Shown piece after piece: positions 53,085 through 61,910 of a DNA stretch of 64,000 nucleotides (position 1 is the stretch's first letter; each line of letters starts with the position of its first letter). The stretch spans positions 1 to 64,000 of the forward strand of contig CALQLF020000003.1 of the NCBI GenBank assembly GCA_943331345.2. Direction: 5' to 3'. Position numbers and translations under genes: made by a program. This DNA is from Candidatus Planktophila lacus. Lineage in GTDB: Bacteria; Pseudomonadota; Gammaproteobacteria; Steroidobacterales; Steroidobacteraceae. The notes beneath the pieces are model-generated. The model ran no database searches and had not been told where the DNA came from. It was given only the letters and a program-made list of their open reading frames with translations.

Positions 53085-55202
53085 TTACTTGATGAGGCTG
53101 CCCGTGACCGCGCCGGCATCCGGCGACAGCACGAAGATGCCACCGGCGCCGTTTTCCGCCGCCAGCACCATGCCCTCGCTGGTGCCGAAGCGCATCTTGC
53201 GCGGCTTCAGGTTGGCGACAATGACCACTTGGCGGCCCACCAATTGCTCCGGGGCATAGGCGGAACGGATGCCAGAGAAAATGGTTCGCTCGATAGCGGT
53301 GCCGTCGGCACTGGTGCCTAGGCTGACGCGCAGCTTCAGCAGTTTGTCGGAGCCCTCGACTGCCGAGGCCTCCAGTACTTCCGCGACGCGTAACTCGACC
53401 TTCATCAGGGCTTCGAGATCGATTTCGGGAGTGGCACCTGCCGCGGGCGCCGCTGCCTTGCTCGCGGTCGCTTCTTTCTGCGCAGGCTTGGGCTCTGCGA
53501 TGGGCTCGCTCACTGTCGGTGGCGTTACCACCAACTGTGCTACCACCTTGGCGTCCAGGCGCGTGGCCAGCGCTTCGTAGGCGCGGATGGCGTGGTCGAG
53601 CAAGGGCGTGTCGAGTTGTTCCCAACGGCTGATGGGTGACTGCAGGAACGCTTCGGCGCCCGCTGCTAGGTTCGGCATGACGGGCTTCAGAAAACCTACC
53701 AGCGAACGGAAGAGATTCAGGCCCTGCGTACACACGGCCTGCACTTCGGTCGCCTTGGCCGGGTCTTTTGCCAGCAACCAGGGCTTCTGTGTGTCGATGT
53801 ACTGGTTGGCCTTGTCTGCCAGCATCATCACTTCACGCACGGCGGCCGCGTAGTCGCGGGCTTCGTAGAGCGCCTGAATGCGTGGGCGGGCTGCTACAAA
53901 TTCCGCAAACAGGCCGGGCTCCGGGAGCGTCGCGGCCAGGCGGCCCTCGAAGCTGCGGGTGAGGAAGCCCGCGCAGCGGCTGCCGATGTTCACTACCTTG
54001 CCGACTACTTCGGCGTTGAAGCGGCTGGTGAAGTCTTCGAGGCTCAAGTCCATGTCATCAAGACCGGACGTGAGCTTGCTCGCGAAATAAAAGCGCAGCG
54101 GCTCCGCGGGCAGCAGGTCGAGGTACTGGCGCGCGGTGATGAACGTGCCGCGACTCTTCGACATCTTCTGGCCGTTCACGGTAAGGAAGCCGTGAACGAA
54201 CACGCCATTCGGCGTGCGCATCCCGGCACCATTCAGGACGGCGGGCCAGAACAGCGCGTGGAAATACAGGATGTCCTTGCCGATGAAGTGGTAGAGCTCG
54301 GTGCCCGACGAACGAGCGCCTTCGGCCCCCCAGAACTCGTCATGAGTGGCGGCGACATCGACACCGCGCTTGGCGGACAGGGCGTCGAAGCTGCCGATGT
54401 AGCCGATGGGTGCGTCGAGCCAGACATAGAAGAACTTGCCGGGAGCACCGGGGATGCCAAAGCCGAAGTACGGTGCATCGCGCGAGATGTCCCAGTCGCG
54501 AAGGCCTGCGGTAAACCACTCGTCCAGCTTGTTGGCCACGCCCGCGTCCACGGTGCCGCTACGTACCCACTCTTTCAGCAAGGCTTCGAAGTGGCCCAAC
54601 TGAAAGAACAAGTGCTCGCTGTCGCGTTCTTCGGGCGTGGTACCCGAGACCGCCGACACCGGGTCGATGAGTTCAGACGGGGAGTAGGTGGCGCCGCATT
54701 TCTCGCAGCTGTCGCCGTACTGGTCCGCCGCCTTGCAGCGGGGGCAGGTGCCCTTCACGTAGCGGTCCGGCAGGAACATGCCGGCCTTGGCATCGTAGGC
54801 CTGACGGATGGTGCGGCGCGAGATATGGCCAGCCGCATCCAGTGACTGGAAAATCTGCTCCGTACGCGCGCGGTTCTCGGACGCATTGGTGCTATGGAAA
54901 TGGTCGAAGTCGATACCGAAGGCGGCGAAGTCCGCCGCGTGCTCGGCACCGACGCGCGCAATGAGTTCTTCCGGCGTAATGCCCTCGGACTGGGCCCGCA
55001 ACATGATCGGGGTGCCGTGGGTGTCGTCCGCACAGACGTAGTAGCACTCGTTGCCGGCCATCTTCTGGTGACGCACCCAGATGTCGGTTTGGGTGTATTC
55101 CACCAAGTGGCCTAGATGCAGCGGGCCGTTGGCGTAGGGCAGGGCACTGGTAACGAGAATGCGGCGCATGGCGGGCGTAGGTCCGAAACGGTAATGCGCC
55201 AT
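53085..55202 (-). CDS. metG: Methionyl-tRNA synthetase
   Basis: Charges tRNA-Met. The 705-residue class I enzyme has [18 protein letters not shown] (HLGH variant of HIGH) near 20-37, the Zn knuckle [17 protein letters not shown], and [13 protein letters not shown] near 340 with KMSKS. Residues about 600-705 are a tRNA-binding domain ([29 protein letters not shown]). An alternative start is ATG 55169, giving [15 protein letters not shown]. It precedes rnfB on the same strand; the gap is 19 bp. Confidence 0.97.
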
Positions 55203-55231: not shown

Positions 55232-55909
55232 CTATCGCACTTCGGCCAAGTGCCCCACTTTCACGAAGAACCGGCCGCCCTCAGGCGCCGTGTAGGTGTC
55301 GCTGGTGCCGGGCGGGCGCCGCGACCACAGGCCGGTGGCCACGGAGTACAACTCTTCGCCAGCCGGCGGTACACCTGCCGCGTGGGGCAAGGCGAACTGA
55401 CTGCCCGGCGCCGCTTCCAGCAGCCAACTGGCCTCAATGCCTTCGCCCCCCAACCACAGCCCTCGCAGGCTGCCCTGCAGGGCAGGGAGGGTGCGCCAGG
55501 CCGGGTTGGTGTCACTGGTGTCCACTACGAGCCTGCCAGCGGCAGAAATGCTCGGCGCGGCCACTCGGCTGGCTGTCAGGTGGCGCAATTTCACGAGTAG
55601 CTCGCAGCCCTCGACGCTGCCGGGAGCATGGGTTTCGCCATGCGCGTTGCGCATGAACGTGCCCACCGGGTAGCTGCCGTGTTCGTCGTGGAAGGTGCCC
55701 GACAGCACGAGAATTTCTTCGCCAAACGGGTGGCCATGCGGCGGAAAGACGGAGCCGGCGGCATAGGTGACGCGCGAGGTGCAACGGGCCTGTTCCGCGC
55801 CGTCGCGTTCGATCATCTTGCGGTGAACACCAGCCGCTGGCGAGGGTACCCACGCCAGCTGTGTGCTGTCTACGTCGGCGGGAAGGGCTAGGTCTGCATG
55901 CAATTGCAT
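55232..55909 (-). CDS. ChrR-like bicupin protein
   Basis: A 225-residue cupin related to the C-terminal domain of ChrR anti-sigma factors. The first cupin has [18 protein letters not shown] and [15 protein letters not shown], giving His/Glu metal ligands; a second, weaker cupin half lies in the C-terminal 90 residues ([15 protein letters not shown]). The zinc-binding anti-sigma domain of ChrR is absent and no sigma-factor gene is nearby, so its job is open: enzyme, small-molecule sensor or scaffold. It begins 7 bases after the PilT-like stop, at the end of the kinase operon. Confidence 0.72.
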
Positions 55910-55916
55910 GGATGGC

Positions 55917-56984
55917 CTAGCTCGGTTCGCGGTCGCGATATTGCTCGAACTTCGCCTTGTTGAAGGCCTTGGCGTAGGCGCTCTTGCCGGTGATGCGACG
56001 TGTTTCCATCAGCTGCTGCAAGGCCATATCCATGGTGCGCATACCGTGCTGGGCACCGGACTGCATCACGGTTTCCAATTGGTCGTTCTTGCCCTGCCGG
56101 ATGAGGTTCGCCACGGCGGGCGTGTTCACCATGATCTCCAGCGCAGCCACGCGGCCGGGGGTGCCGGCGGTGGGCACCAACTGTTGCGACACCACGCCAC
56201 GCAGGCTGGTGGACAGCATGGCCCGCACTTGGCCCTGCTTGTCCGCAGGGAAGGCGTTGATGATGCGGTCGACGGTAGGCGCAGCGCCGTTGGTATGCAG
56301 CGTACCCATCACCAGAATGCCGGTCTCTGCGGCGGTGACCGCTATGCTGATCGTTTCCAGATCGCGCATTTCTCCGACGAGGATGACATCCGGGTCTTCG
56401 CGGAGGGCGCCATGAACGGCGGACGCAAAGGAAGGGGCATGGACGCCGACTTCGCGCTGGCTGATGAGACACCCTTTGCGGTGGTGCACGAACTCGATGG
56501 GGTCCTCGATGGTGAGGATGTGCCCCTTCGTACGCGCGTTGATGTCGTCCACCATCGCGGCGAGCGTGGTGCTCTTGCCGCTGCCGGTCTTGCCCGTGAC
56601 GAGGATGAGGCCGTTGGAGGATTTGCACAGCGCCCGCACCGCGTCGGGCATGGCGAGTTCGTCCAGAGTTTTGGTGCGGCTCGGAATGACGCGGAATACG
56701 GCACCGAGGCCCCCCAGATGGCGCAGCACGTTCACGCGAAAGCGCGCCACTTCCGGGATGGAATGCGCGAAGTCCGCACCGTCCTGCTTATCCAGGCGGT
56801 CCTGTGCGCGCTTGGGCATGATCTCCAGCAGCATTTCCTGCACGGCTTGAGGCTGCAGTGGTTCGGTGGCGAGGGGTTGTAGTTCGCCGTATTGGCGCAG
56901 CCTGGGCGGGTCTCCGGCCATGAAGTGCAAATCGGAGCCGTTGCGCTTCAAGACCTCGAGCAGGTACTCGTCGATGCGTGCCAT
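55917..56984 (-). CDS. PilT/PilU-family twitching ATPase (second copy)
   Basis: Hexameric secretion-type ATPase that powers pilus retraction, 355 residues. Seen: NGSDLHFMAGDPPRLRQYG at the N-terminus, Walker A GKTGSGKSTT near 134-143, the Asp box IEDPIEFVHHRK, the Walker B region DPDVILVGEMRD and the His box GTLHTNGA. Compared with the neighbour it has Asn where PilT has Thr in LHTT. The arrangement is close to the PilT group. It begins 10 bases after its paralog; the two share perhaps half of their residues by eye. Confidence 0.87.
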   Translation of the reverse strand: MARIDEYLLEVLKRNGSDLHFMAGDPPRLRQYGELQPLATEPLQPQAVQEMLLEIMPKRAQDRLDKQDGADFAHSIPEVARFRVNVLRHLGGLGAVFRVIPSRTKTLDELAMPDAVRALCKSSNGLILVTGKTGSGKSTTLAAMVDDINARTKGHILTIEDPIEFVHHRKGCLISQREVGVHAPSFASAVHGALREDPDVILVGEMRDLETISIAVTAAETGILVMGTLHTNGAAPTVDRIINAFPADKQGQVRAMLSTSLRGVVSQQLVPTAGTPGRVAALEIMVNTPAVANLIRQGKNDQLETVMQSGAQHGMRTMDMALQQLMETRRITGKSAYAKAFNKAKFEQYRDREPS

Positions 56985-56994
56985 GCGCGTGTCC

Positions 56995-58086
56995 TCAGCC
57001 TGCCGTTTCGAACTTGGGCACCAGCGACGGGTCCGTCACGAAGCGCGCGAAAGACTTCTTGTCGGTAGCGTAGTGGTAGGCGTCATCTGGGTCGATTTCC
57101 TTGGCCTGCAAGGCTGCATTCAAGGCCTGGTCTAGAGTCTGCATACCAAGGTCGCGCCCGGTCTGCAACTGTGCCGGCAACTGGAAGGTCTGGTCCGTCT
57201 GTATGAGCTTGGCGATGGCGCGCGTCATGACGAGCGTCTCCACGACGGCGCGCCGACCCTTGCCGTCCGGCTTCTTCACCAGCACTTGGGTGATGACAGC
57301 GATGAGACTCTGGCCGAGGAAGCTCTTGGTCTGCTCGCGCTCCTCGATGGGCAGGGCGTCGAGGATACGGTCGACCGTCTTGGTGGCACTGGTGGTGTGC
57401 AGCGTACCGAACACCAAGTGCCCGGTCTCGGCAGCGGTCATCGCCATGCGGATGGTCTCGGCATCGCGCATTTCACCGACGAGGATGACGTCCGGATCTT
57501 CGCGCATCGCGGCACGAACGCCATCGGCGAAAGTGGGTACGTGGGTATGGAGTTCGCGCTGCACTACTTGGGATTGCTGGCTGCGGTGGACGAACTCGAT
57601 GGGGTCTTCAAGGGAAATGATGTTCACCCGGCGCGTACGGTTCAGGTGATCGATCATCGCGGCGAGGGTGGTGCTCTTGCCCGTACCCGTGGCGCCAGTG
57701 ACGAGAATCATGCCTTGGTGATTGTCCAGCAGGCTGGTGACTATCGGTGGCAGACCAAGGTCTGCGAGTAATGGTGTCGTGTCTGGGATGGCGCGGAACA
57801 CCGCGCCGACGCCAGTGTCCTTGCGAAACACGTTGGCACGAAAGCGGGTGCCGTCTTCAGCGACATAGGAGAAGTCGAGGTCGAGGCCTTGGCGGAACTG
57901 CGTCACCAGGTTTGGTGTGAGAATTTCCGCGATATAGCCTTCGAGTTCCGAAGGGCCCAAGTCGCGAAAACGCACCGGTAACAGGTCGCCGGAGAGGCGC
58001 AACATCGGGGGCACGCCCACGGCCAAGTGGATGTCCGAGGCGCCTTGCGCCCGTCCGAGCTTCAGGAAGGCGTCGATGCGGGGCAT
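56995..58086 (-). CDS. PilT/PilU-family twitching ATPase (first copy)
   Basis: Secretion ATPase of the PilT group, 363 residues. It has QGASDIHLAVGVPPMLRLSG near 14-33, Walker A GATGTGKSTT near 132-141, the Asp box SLEDPIEFVHRSQQ, DPDVILVGEMRD and GTLHTTSATKTVDR (His box). All catalytic elements are present. It follows the HEAT-kinase by only 3 bases and precedes the second copy by 10. No pilus assembly genes surround it, and a normal pilT-pilU pair probably lies elsewhere, so these two may serve a dedicated machine. Confidence 0.87.
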   Translation of the reverse strand: MPRIDAFLKLGRAQGASDIHLAVGVPPMLRLSGDLLPVRFRDLGPSELEGYIAEILTPNLVTQFRQGLDLDFSYVAEDGTRFRANVFRKDTGVGAVFRAIPDTTPLLADLGLPPIVTSLLDNHQGMILVTGATGTGKSTTLAAMIDHLNRTRRVNIISLEDPIEFVHRSQQSQVVQRELHTHVPTFADGVRAAMREDPDVILVGEMRDAETIRMAMTAAETGHLVFGTLHTTSATKTVDRILDALPIEEREQTKSFLGQSLIAVITQVLVKKPDGKGRRAVVETLVMTRAIAKLIQTDQTFQLPAQLQTGRDLGMQTLDQALNAALQAKEIDPDDAYHYATDKKSFARFVTDPSLVPKFETAG

Positions 58087-58089
58087 GGG

Positions 58090-60609
58090 TCAGGTTCCCG
58101 GCAGAAAAGCGGTGAGAGCCAGTCGCAACTCGTCCATGGTCTGGAAGCGGCGGGTCTTGTCCACGGCCATGGCCTGCATGACCAGGTCTGAGAGGCCGGC
58201 GGGCAGGTCCCGGTTGATTTCACTGGGTGGCGCTGCTTTGCCCTGCACATGTTGGTACATGACGGACATGTGGTCGCCGCGGCTATACGGCGGAATGCCG
58301 GTAAGCATCTCGTAAAGGATGACGCCGAGCGAGTAGACGTCGGAGCGCGGGTCGACCTTCTTGCCGAGGATTTGTTCCGGCGCCATGTATTTCGGCGAGC
58401 CAATGACATAGCCGGTTTTGGTGAGCGCGGTGTCTGTGTCGCGCTGCGCGGCAGCAACGCCGAAGTCCACAATCTTCAGCAGGTCTTCGTCATTGATGAG
58501 GACGTTAGCGGGCTTGAGGTCGCGATGGATGATGCCCACTTGGTGGGCCACGGCCATGCCGCTGGCAATGTCGATGCCGAACTGCAAGGCGCGGTGCAGC
58601 GCCAGTGGTTTGTCCTCGCGCAGTTCCATGGACAAAGTGTGGCTTGGAAAGTACTCCATCGAGATGGCATACAACCCTTGCAAGGCGATGAAGTCATAGA
58701 TGCGAATGACGTTGCGGTGCGTGATCTTGCGGGAGTAGCGCAGTTCATGGACGAAGCGTTTGAGCACCTCCTCGTCCTGCGCCACGTTGGCGTTCAGGAA
58801 CTTCAGGATGAGCCGTTCGTCGACTACCGTGTCTTCCATCAGCAGTACGGTGCCGAAGGCGCCCTTGCCGATTTTTTCGAGGTACTTGTAGCGCCCCTCG
58901 ATGATATCGCCCGGCTTGAGTTCGCCAATGTCGAGACGAGGAACGCCGGCGGCAATGGGGGGGTTCTGGTTGATGGTGCTGCCGGAGCCCCCCTGGGTAC
59001 CGCCCAAGGTTCCAGCGAGATTTCCTACGGCCGTGGTGGACAAGCGCCCGACACCGGTGCCGGCCAGCGACGGGCTCTGACTGCCGGGCAGATGGACTTG
59101 GCCGGTGGTTTCATCCAGCAGCGTGTGCGCCGGCTCTTGCAGCAAACGCGCGTGCTGCGCTGCCATCACCATGCTGGGGGAGAAGCGTGCTTCGATGGCT
59201 TCGATGGCGCTGAGTGCGGCGTTGTGCAGGGCTACGTCGCTGGTTTCCACGGCCAGTTGGCGGATGGCTTGGCGAACCGACTCGGCGTTACTATCGTCGA
59301 CGAGTCGCGCTGCCGCGGTGACGGCCTCCGCGCGCACCGACGGTTCCGGGTGCAGGAACTGGTCGACGACGGCCTGCAAGGCCTGCGGATCACCGAGCTT
59401 TCCCAGGGCGCGCAGGGCAGTGGGAATGCTGCGCGGCTCACCGCGGAGCATTTCCAGCATGCGCGGCACGGCCTTGCGATTGCCAATTTCGGCGAGGGCG
59501 TCCACGGCACGTTCGCTCACCCACCAGTCGGTGTCGTGCGTCGCCTCGATGAGGCTGTCGACTGCGCGGGTATCCTTGGTCTGGTTCAAGATTTCGATGG
59601 CGGCACGACGCACATCGCCGTCCCGATCGCGTACCAATTGGAGAACAGCCTGCAGTACGCGTGGCCCGCCGATTTTAGCGAGTGCGTCAGCAGCGCGCGA
59701 GCGTACCCACCAGTCGGCGTCCTTGATGGCATCGAGCAGAAACTTCACGGAAGCGGCGTCACCGACTTCGTTCAGCACCTCGACTGCCGCACGTCGAGCA
59801 TATTCGTTTTCGTCTTTCAGTACTTCCACGAGGTGAGGGACCACTGCGGCATCGCCGGCGCGGATGAGTACTTCCACGGCGCGGTTCTGCACCTCCATGT
59901 CCGAGTCACGCAGCAGGCGGGCGATGATTGCCACATCGACCGGGCCGCTCATTTGCGCGATGGCGTTGAGGGCTGCGCCACGGATGAGTCGGTTCGTGTC
60001 CCGGAGTTGCGTTTGCAGTGCGGTGCGTACGAGTGGATCGTCGAAGCGCGAGACCAACTGGATGATGTTGAGGCGTGCTACCGGGTCTTTGCCGTCGATG
60101 CGTGCCAGCAAATCCGGCAGCGCGGAGGCGTCCATGATCTCGCCGATGATGCGAAACAGGGCGCTGCGGTTTGTTCCTTCCTGATGATAGGCCGCCTGCA
60201 GCAAGTCGCGGACGGTCAGGCGCACGCGATGGGCATTGATGATTTCCATCACCTGCGTGCGGGGCAGTTCAGGCGACTGCAGCAGGCCGAGGATATTGGC
60301 CGGCGGAACGTTTTTGGCGCCGGCGAGCGCCCAACCCACCCCGGCCACTACGCGCGGGTTGGGGTCGCATAGGCCTTTAACGAATTCGGGGAAGTTGCGG
60401 GCGTCTGCCAACTGGGCGAGCACGTCCACGAACGCGAGGGTGGCCTTCTTTTCGCTCCGGCCGAGCTCGGCAATGACCAAGGGCACAACCGAGGGCCCCA
60501 GAGCGGTCAGTTTCGTCAGCGCAACACGAACTTCCGGACGCCCCGGATCGCTCGCTTCGCGGACGGTTGTCAGCAACCGGTCCGCACGCATGGAAGTGAA
60601 TAGCCCCAT
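58090..60609 (-). CDS. HEAT-repeat Ser/Thr protein kinase
   Basis: A Hanks-type kinase joined to an N-terminal scaffold, 839 residues from ATG 60609 (TTG 60642 and ATG 60591 are alternatives). Residues about 10-480 form HEAT/PBS repeats, with near-copies such as DADWWVRSRAADALAKIG and DTDWWVSERAVDALAEIG. A Gly/Ser-rich linker follows. The kinase domain fills 565-839: GKGAFGTV loop, LILKFLN Lys, HRDLKPAN catalytic loop, DFGVA and KYMAPEQ. All needed residues are present; there is no membrane helix or C-terminal sensor. It heads an operon with two PilT-like ATPases and a cupin (gaps 3, 10 and 7 bases), which are its likely targets or partners. Confidence 0.88.
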   Translation of the reverse strand: MGLFTSMRADRLLTTVREASDPGRPEVRVALTKLTALGPSVVPLVIAELGRSEKKATLAFVDVLAQLADARNFPEFVKGLCDPNPRVVAGVGWALAGAKNVPPANILGLLQSPELPRTQVMEIINAHRVRLTVRDLLQAAYHQEGTNRSALFRIIGEIMDASALPDLLARIDGKDPVARLNIIQLVSRFDDPLVRTALQTQLRDTNRLIRGAALNAIAQMSGPVDVAIIARLLRDSDMEVQNRAVEVLIRAGDAAVVPHLVEVLKDENEYARRAAVEVLNEVGDAASVKFLLDAIKDADWWVRSRAADALAKIGGPRVLQAVLQLVRDRDGDVRRAAIEILNQTKDTRAVDSLIEATHDTDWWVSERAVDALAEIGNRKAVPRMLEMLRGEPRSIPTALRALGKLGDPQALQAVVDQFLHPEPSVRAEAVTAAARLVDDSNAESVRQAIRQLAVETSDVALHNAALSAIEAIEARFSPSMVMAAQHARLLQEPAHTLLDETTGQVHLPGSQSPSLAGTGVGRLSTTAVGNLAGTLGGTQGGSGSTINQNPPIAAGVPRLDIGELKPGDIIEGRYKYLEKIGKGAFGTVLLMEDTVVDERLILKFLNANVAQDEEVLKRFVHELRYSRKITHRNVIRIYDFIALQGLYAISMEYFPSHTLSMELREDKPLALHRALQFGIDIASGMAVAHQVGIIHRDLKPANVLINDEDLLKIVDFGVAAAQRDTDTALTKTGYVIGSPKYMAPEQILGKKVDPRSDVYSLGVILYEMLTGIPPYSRGDHMSVMYQHVQGKAAPPSEINRDLPAGLSDLVMQAMAVDKTRRFQTMDELRLALTAFLPGT

Positions 60610-60797: not shown

Positions 60798-61910
60798 ATG
60801 CCTGCTGCCAATTCTCCGGAAGCCATCGCCGCCTTGGGCGTCGAACTCAGCGACCGTGCCGCTGCCTGCCTTGATCCGGTGGTAGGGGTCCCGTTGGGTG
60901 CGTTGGGCGCCGTACGCGTAGCGCCAGCGGGAGCGGGTTGGCGGGTGGCGGTGCAGTTGCCGTTCCCGGTGGGCGGTCCGGCCGGCGGACATGCCGCCGC
61001 TCTGTTGCCGGTATTGGCGGCGGCGCTCGGGGTTGAACCCGCGGCGCTCACGCTCGAACTGTCTGCCCATATCCCCACCGGCGCCGTGCAGGGCCAACTG
61101 ACACCGCTACCGGGCATCCGCAATGTCATCGCCGTAGCTTCGGGCAAAGGCGGGGTCGGCAAGAGCACCGTCGCCGTCAATCTCGCGCTCGCGCTGTCCG
61201 CTCAGGGCGCTCGGGTCGGTCTGCTCGATGCCGACATTTACGGGCCGAGCGTGCCGTTGCTGCTGGGTTTGCAAGGCGAAAGGCCGCTGTCCCGTGACGG
61301 CAAGTCCTTCGACCCTTTGCGGGCGCATGGCATCGAAGCCATCTCCATCGGCTTCCTCATCGACGCCGAACAGCCCATGGTGTGGCGTGGTCCCATGGTG
61401 ACGCAGGCACTCACGCAGTTGCTGAGCGACACCCGCTGGGCCGAACTCGACTACCTGCTGGTGGACATGCCGCCGGGTACGGGTGACATCCAGTTGACGC
61501 TGGCGCAGCGGGTGCCCGTCAGTGGCGCCATCATCGTCACCACGCCGCAAGACATTGCCCTGCTCGACGCCCGCAAGGGGCTGAAGATGTTCGAGAAGGT
61601 GCAGGTCCCCGTGCTCGGCATCGTGGAGAACATGGCGGTACATACCTGCAGCCAGTGCGGCCACACCGAAGCCGTGTTTGGCGAAGGTGGCGGTGAACGC
61701 ATGGCCGCCGACTACCACGTACCTTTACTCGGGCGCCTGCCCCTGCATCGGCGTATTCGCGAGGATGCGGACGCGGGTTGCCCGACGGTCGCAGCGGATC
61801 CGGAAGGGCCGGTGGCCTTGCTTTACCATGCGGCGGCGCGGCGCGCAGTCGCGGAACTGGCCCTGCGGACAGCCCCGGCGGGCCCCGTCATCACGGCAGA
61901 CGACACCTGA
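60798..61910 (+). CDS. apbC: Iron-sulfur cluster carrier ATPase ApbC/Mrp
   Basis: P-loop ATPase of the Mrp/NBP35 family that carries [4Fe-4S] clusters to apo-proteins. The 370-residue protein has a degenerate N-terminal MIP18-like domain, a deviant Walker [15 protein letters not shown] near 115-127, [22 protein letters not shown] and the cluster-binding CSQC near 280. Length equals E. coli Mrp (369). It is divergent from the HEAT-kinase and 52 bp upstream of dcd. Confidence 0.95.

Follow-up and report, generated by a model that had tools for sequence, protein, structure and literature searches.

The window analysed here, a stretch of 64,000 nucleotides, comes from contig 3 of a 3.17-Mb genome assembled in 184 contigs (labelled G000). 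The genome belongs to a Steroidobacteraceae-like gammaproteobacterium whose named relatives are gammaproteobacteria of the Steroidobacteraceae type; among them are the cultured Povalibacter uvarum, Peristeroidobacter soli, P. agariperforans and Steroidobacter gossypii. The features of the locus are presented in Table 1. Four open reading frames follow one another on the minus strand with intergenic gaps of 3, 10 and 7 bases, exactly as described for a four-gene operon in the initial annotation of this DNA. They code for a Ser/Thr kinase with HEAT repeats, two ATPases of the PilT family (A and B) and a cupin. The metG gene, which that annotation did not include, begins 29 bases past the cupin gene in the same direction.

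Table 1. Genes and features of the kinase-motor locus, with positions in the window
Feature	Position	Strand	Basis
HEAT-repeat Ser/Thr kinase, 839 aa, first gene of the module	58090..60609	-	Pfam HEAT_2 and Pkinase; AlphaFold; Foldseek PknB/Stk1; start supported by homologues
Kinase HEAT arm, hyper-conserved part, residues about 255-372 (DWWVRSRAADAL, DWWVSERAVDAL), possible docking face	59494..59847	-	Conservation over 51 homologues; invariant columns
Kinase domain: G-loop, catalytic Lys, HRDLKPAN, DFG, activation-loop Thr	58102..58926	-	Motif match
PilT-family ATPase, clade A	56995..58086	-	TIGR01420, 410.7 bits; own clade
PilT-family ATPase, clade B	55917..56984	-	TIGR01420, 446.7 bits; own clade; first His-box His replaced by Ile/Val
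Cupin_7 protein, genus-level addition outside the conserved module	55232..55909	-	Pfam, NCBIfam, locus comparison
metG, usual gene after the module in this order, not a module part	53085..55202	-	ORF, Pfam, locus comparison
apbC/mrp, divergent upstream neighbour in this family, not a module part	60798..61910	+	Pfam, locus comparison

The kinase, the two ATPases and the cupin

The identities first given to the kinase and the two ATPases are confirmed by Pfam and NCBIfam matches. The kinase matches HEAT_2 with an E-value of 3e-50 and Pkinase with 3e-49. In its AlphaFold model (mean pLDDT 80), residues 2-478 form about 30 HEAT helices, and a disordered linker leads from these to a kinase domain similar to that of PknB/Stk1. 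The G-loop, the catalytic Lys, the HRD and DFG motifs and the activation-loop Thr, which together characterize the Hanks type, are all found in the window protein and in 44 of its 51 homologues. The score against the equivalog for PknB/Stk1 PASTA kinases is 280.9 bits, below its cut-off of 450, and the window kinase has no clear membrane segment. The section of the HEAT arm highlighted in Table 1 is as conserved among the homologues as the catalytic core. This conservation exceeds the needs of a mere spacer and would fit a putative docking face.

Both ATPases have a T2SSE match in Pfam and exceed the cut-off of 319.1 bits of the NCBIfam PilT/PilU family. The Walker A, Walker B and Asp boxes are kept in both window proteins and form invariant columns among the homologues. 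The position of the PilT motif AIRNLIRE is occupied by AIAKLIQT in A and by AVANLIRQ in B, and Ile or Val replaces the first histidine of the His box in all 48 members of the B clade. Neither protein has the combination of AIRNLIRE with both His-box histidines that marks canonical PilT. In a tree of 145 PilT-family proteins, A belongs to a clade of 50 members (support 100) and B to a clade of 48 members (support 99), both separate from the clade of P. aeruginosa PilT and from the clade with the solved PilU chains. The tree joins A and B as sisters, with a moderate support of 83; it was built by a quick method and contains two very long branches, so that its deep part is uncertain. A and B represent two unnamed subfamilies of the PilT family, with a predicted role in retraction.

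The fourth protein was initially described as ChrR-like. It matches Cupin_7 (E 3e-31), but its score for the ChrR anti-sigma family is 30 bits against a curated cut-off of 124.5. The cupin gene is present in the three genomes of the window's genus (g1) where the locus was seen, namely those of the window, G015 and G035. None of the other loci among about 100 in the family contains it, and it is also absent from the loci found elsewhere in the class. Since the cupin is confined to one genus, it was rejected as a part of the module, and the idea of a ligand-sensing cupin fails. The position of its gene, 7 bases behind that of motor B in genus g1, could suggest that the cupin senses a ligand and that the kinase relays the signal to the motors; however, its distribution and its score both speak against this, and such a role is very improbable. 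The cupin is a local add-on, a passenger in genus g1. What stands of the signalling module proposed at first is the kinase with A and B, which form one conserved module linked to type IV pili.

Conservation of the gene order

The kinase is present in 54 of 60 genomes of the family, 106 of 147 of the taxonomic order and 32 of 275 of the class; 28 of these last 32 lie outside the order and come from 18 families. A sample of 299 genomes of the phylum, searched at a strict threshold, added no kinase, but the entries shown were all of the same class and may say little about others. In 27 loci of other genomes of the family that were read in depth, dcd and apbC are located divergently upstream, followed by the kinase, A and B in this order and then by metG if the contig extends so far. 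Among the named loci, apbC is upstream of the kinase in 80 of 80, and wherever more than 600 bases remain beyond the kinase (75 loci) the next gene is motor A. The complete order kinase, A, B is found in 71 of the 72 named loci with room for both motors. The exception (L122:8455-9600) has after the kinase a motor that is similar to clade A at its start and to canonical PilT at its end, for which gene conversion and an assembly chimaera are offered as alternative explanations.

The conservation of gene order is far beyond chance. A lack of it had been named at the outset as the observation that would speak against a module; instead, the order of the genes is conserved within the taxonomic order and in the 18 families outside it. 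Of the four genes noted at that time, the kinase, A and B are conserved in this way, but the cupin is not. The distances of the kinase, A and B are correlated with coefficients of 0.90-0.94, which, in a calculation run without a control gene, represent shared descent and not coupling.

It is important to consider whether the site alone could explain this arrangement. The module lies between metG and apbC/dcd throughout the family, and the trio might be held together by these housekeeping neighbours with no functional link between its members. However, in the 18 families outside the order the trio is kept although its flanks differ: these are the riboflavin/nusB/thiL/pgpA genes and gltX in some genomes and FHA and PP2C genes in others. 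In addition, G340, the only one of these genomes with the motors on a different contig from the kinase, has kept all three genes. A mere accident of location is therefore hardly credible.

Pilus genes, partner genes and the predicted mechanism

The initial annotation found no pilus structural gene. This is correct for the neighbourhood but not for the genome, where pilA-pilB-pilC are located on contig 17 and pilM and pilO on contig 15. In the order of the window, the kinase is limited to genomes with pilus machinery: every one of the 27 kinase-bearing genomes tested has PilO, against 7 of 23 genomes that lack the kinase (Fisher p 5e-8, with kinship ignored). The kinase and PilO are jointly absent in several lineages (f12, f13, g30, g13 and g9). 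Outside the order the difference is not significant (23/25 versus 13/18, p 0.11). A search for clades A and B covered 31 genomes. Both were present in all six kinase-bearing genomes tested, while neither was found in any of 18 genomes that are intact and pilus-positive but lack the kinase; this comparison likewise takes no account of kinship. Two drafts were set apart: G090, in which a B gene ends about 500 bases from a contig end, and G052 (75% complete), which shows neither A nor B.

Canonical PilT and PilU-like genes are found elsewhere in the genomes that bear the module. For this reason A and B were rejected as the sole PilT and PilU of the genome. At least five PilT-family genes are present in 13 of the 16 kinase-bearing genomes counted. 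In the window genome, one PilT and two PilU-like genes are consecutive on contig 41, beside yggS and proC (L049:9180-12481); a third PilT-family gene at this canonical locus was seen again in several relatives. Two very divergent PilT-family ATPases, below the family cut-off and with long branches in the tree, are located near each other in G432 (L225:2221-6081). On contig 24 of G371, at a distance from the kinase module, a divergent PilU-like ATPase gene directly follows a gene with an FHA domain (L229:2504-3616).

Across many gammaproteobacteria with type IV pili, the kinase and two motor subfamilies are inherited together, which suggests that the pilus motor has a switch, or a read-out, based on phosphorylation that is as yet undescribed. 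We consider it rather probable that the trio serves the type IVa pilus as an accessory motor module under the control of the kinase. The module would be an old accessory, whose hexameric ATPases A and B would work at the pilus base alongside canonical PilT/PilU and drive pilus dynamics. The cytoplasmic HEAT-repeat kinase would set the timing of A and B by phosphorylating them or a shared partner, to which the HEAT arm, chiefly its hyper-conserved middle, probably tethers it. A search for clade-specific Ser/Thr residues in A and B gave weak phosphosite candidates. The need of the genome for these motors may also be other than retraction. If the proposal is correct, a Ser/Thr kinase that is dedicated to two motor subfamilies and encoded together with them would be an added layer of control on pilus motors, and kinase-linked motors would account for part of the multiplicity of PilT paralogues.

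Additional components are found in 20 loci compared from outside the order (class loci). FHA proteins are readers of phosphothreonine, and FHA or FHA-cyclase genes accompany the motors in 13 of these loci; an FHA gene directly follows motor B in eight, and an FHA-adenylate cyclase gene is located within two genes of motor B in five. A PP2C gene is nearby in five. Just upstream of the kinase, 17 of the 20 loci have a gene for a protein of about 155 residues with two Sm-like barrels in tandem (for example L203:3439-3954), with weak DUF6812/Hfq matches in Pfam below the cut-off. Its model has no Foldseek match under an E-value of 0.001, and its likeness to Hfq rests on Foldseek probabilities of 0.90-0.99 with target TM-scores of about 0.5-0.65. 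In three class loci a related gene is found between motor B and the FHA-cyclase (L199:8884-9618, L207:9891-10559 and L209:3003-3692); the product of the second, the one scanned, is a gag-type aspartyl protease. In the order of the window, the module locus has no FHA, PP2C or Sm-like genes.

Two other loci of the window genome are of related content. On contig 88 there is a gene for an FHA-adenylate/guanylate cyclase (L268:4049-4957) with the same domain make-up as the motor-side cyclase of other families. On contig 36, genes for a CHASE2-Ser/Thr kinase, a PP2C phosphatase and an FHA protein are consecutive (L242:4985-9248), and this operon is kept in the ten kinase-bearing genomes read (L242-L251). 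It is a second, separate phospho-signalling set in the module-bearing genomes. The PP2C-FHA pair was rejected as the cognate eraser and reader of the module, since its place in a separate operon makes the link one of co-occurrence only.

In other gammaproteobacteria, the FHA proteins, the PP2C phosphatase and the tandem Sm-like protein are built into the module locus. A full Ser/Thr phospho-circuit on the pilus motor may be proposed tentatively. The HEAT kinase and, in many lineages, a tandem Sm-like adaptor would bind two dedicated PilT-family hexamers; FHA proteins would serve as readers, a PP2C phosphatase as eraser and an FHA-cyclase as output, the whole acting beside surface sensing by histidine kinases or replacing it.

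The flow of information could also be reversed. In that case A and B would be sensors, either of the engagement of the motor or of contact with a surface, and the kinase would report the state of the pilus to FHA proteins and the FHA-adenylate cyclase, as a Ser/Thr counterpart of Pil-Chp. The position of the FHA and cyclase genes beside motor B, the similar cyclase gene on contig 88 and the canonical PilT/PilU on hand for the work of retraction are in favor of this reading, and in P. aeruginosa the dynamics of the pilus are already an input to cAMP, according to a review (PMC11656802). However, the cyclase gene is missing from the module locus in the order of the window, and we regard a reversed flow as unlikely.

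It is distinctly less easy to believe that the kinase serves chiefly as a scaffold or assembly factor and keeps A and B, which might be a mixed motor, at the pilus base, while its catalysis serves its own control and the motors are not phosphorylated by it. The long HEAT arm with its highly conserved block, and the Sm-like partner in most class loci, would suit such a role; cyanobacterial Hfq is a structural partner of PilB and binds its C-terminal extension (PMC12288463). However, the intact catalytic motifs of the kinase count against a pure scaffold, as do the FHA and PP2C genes that accompany the locus. The kinase-controlled motor module remains the preferred reading.

Comparison with known systems

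The initial annotation knew of no described system with this set of genes, and none was found in the open-licence literature searched; no kinase-PilT operon is described there. The enzyme families are known, while their combination is undescribed in that literature, old and rarely separated.

A and B resemble canonical PilT and PilU (P. aeruginosa PilT, 3jvu; PilU, 9n32; V. cholerae PilU, 10my) in their TIGR01420 membership, their Walker A, Walker B and Asp boxes and the presence of type IVa pili alongside. They differ in forming two other clades, in having a kinase in the operon and in the loss of the first His-box histidine in B and of AIRNLIRE in A. The review mentioned above gives c-di-GMP, cAMP/Pil-Chp, PilZ/FimX and inhibitory peptides as the known inputs to pilus motor ATPases (PMC11656802). 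Pil-Chp surface sensing is similar to the proposed module as a phosphorylation pathway tied to pilus dynamics and an adenylate cyclase. However, it uses His-Asp chemistry, and the passages on kinases in this 2024 review name histidine or sensor kinases only (PMC11656802).

The archaellum of Sulfolobus, which is related to type IV pili as a member of the same family of machines, is controlled by eukaryotic-like kinases and an FHA protein (ArnA with an FHA domain, ArnB, the kinases ArnC and ArnD, and PP2A; PMC4307647). Its target, however, is archaellum gene expression, and a kinase-motor operon is not described in that paper. The Hfq-PilB pair of cyanobacteria is a precedent for a protein of the Sm fold at a pilus motor. 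There the partner is the assembly ATPase PilB, Hfq has a single Sm domain and the review names no Ser/Thr kinase (PMC12288463), while the Sm-like protein found outside the order of the window has tandem Sm domains. The kinase itself shares the fold and the motifs of its catalytic domain with Hanks kinases of the PknB/Stk1 type, but it has a HEAT arm where these have a membrane segment and PASTA domains.
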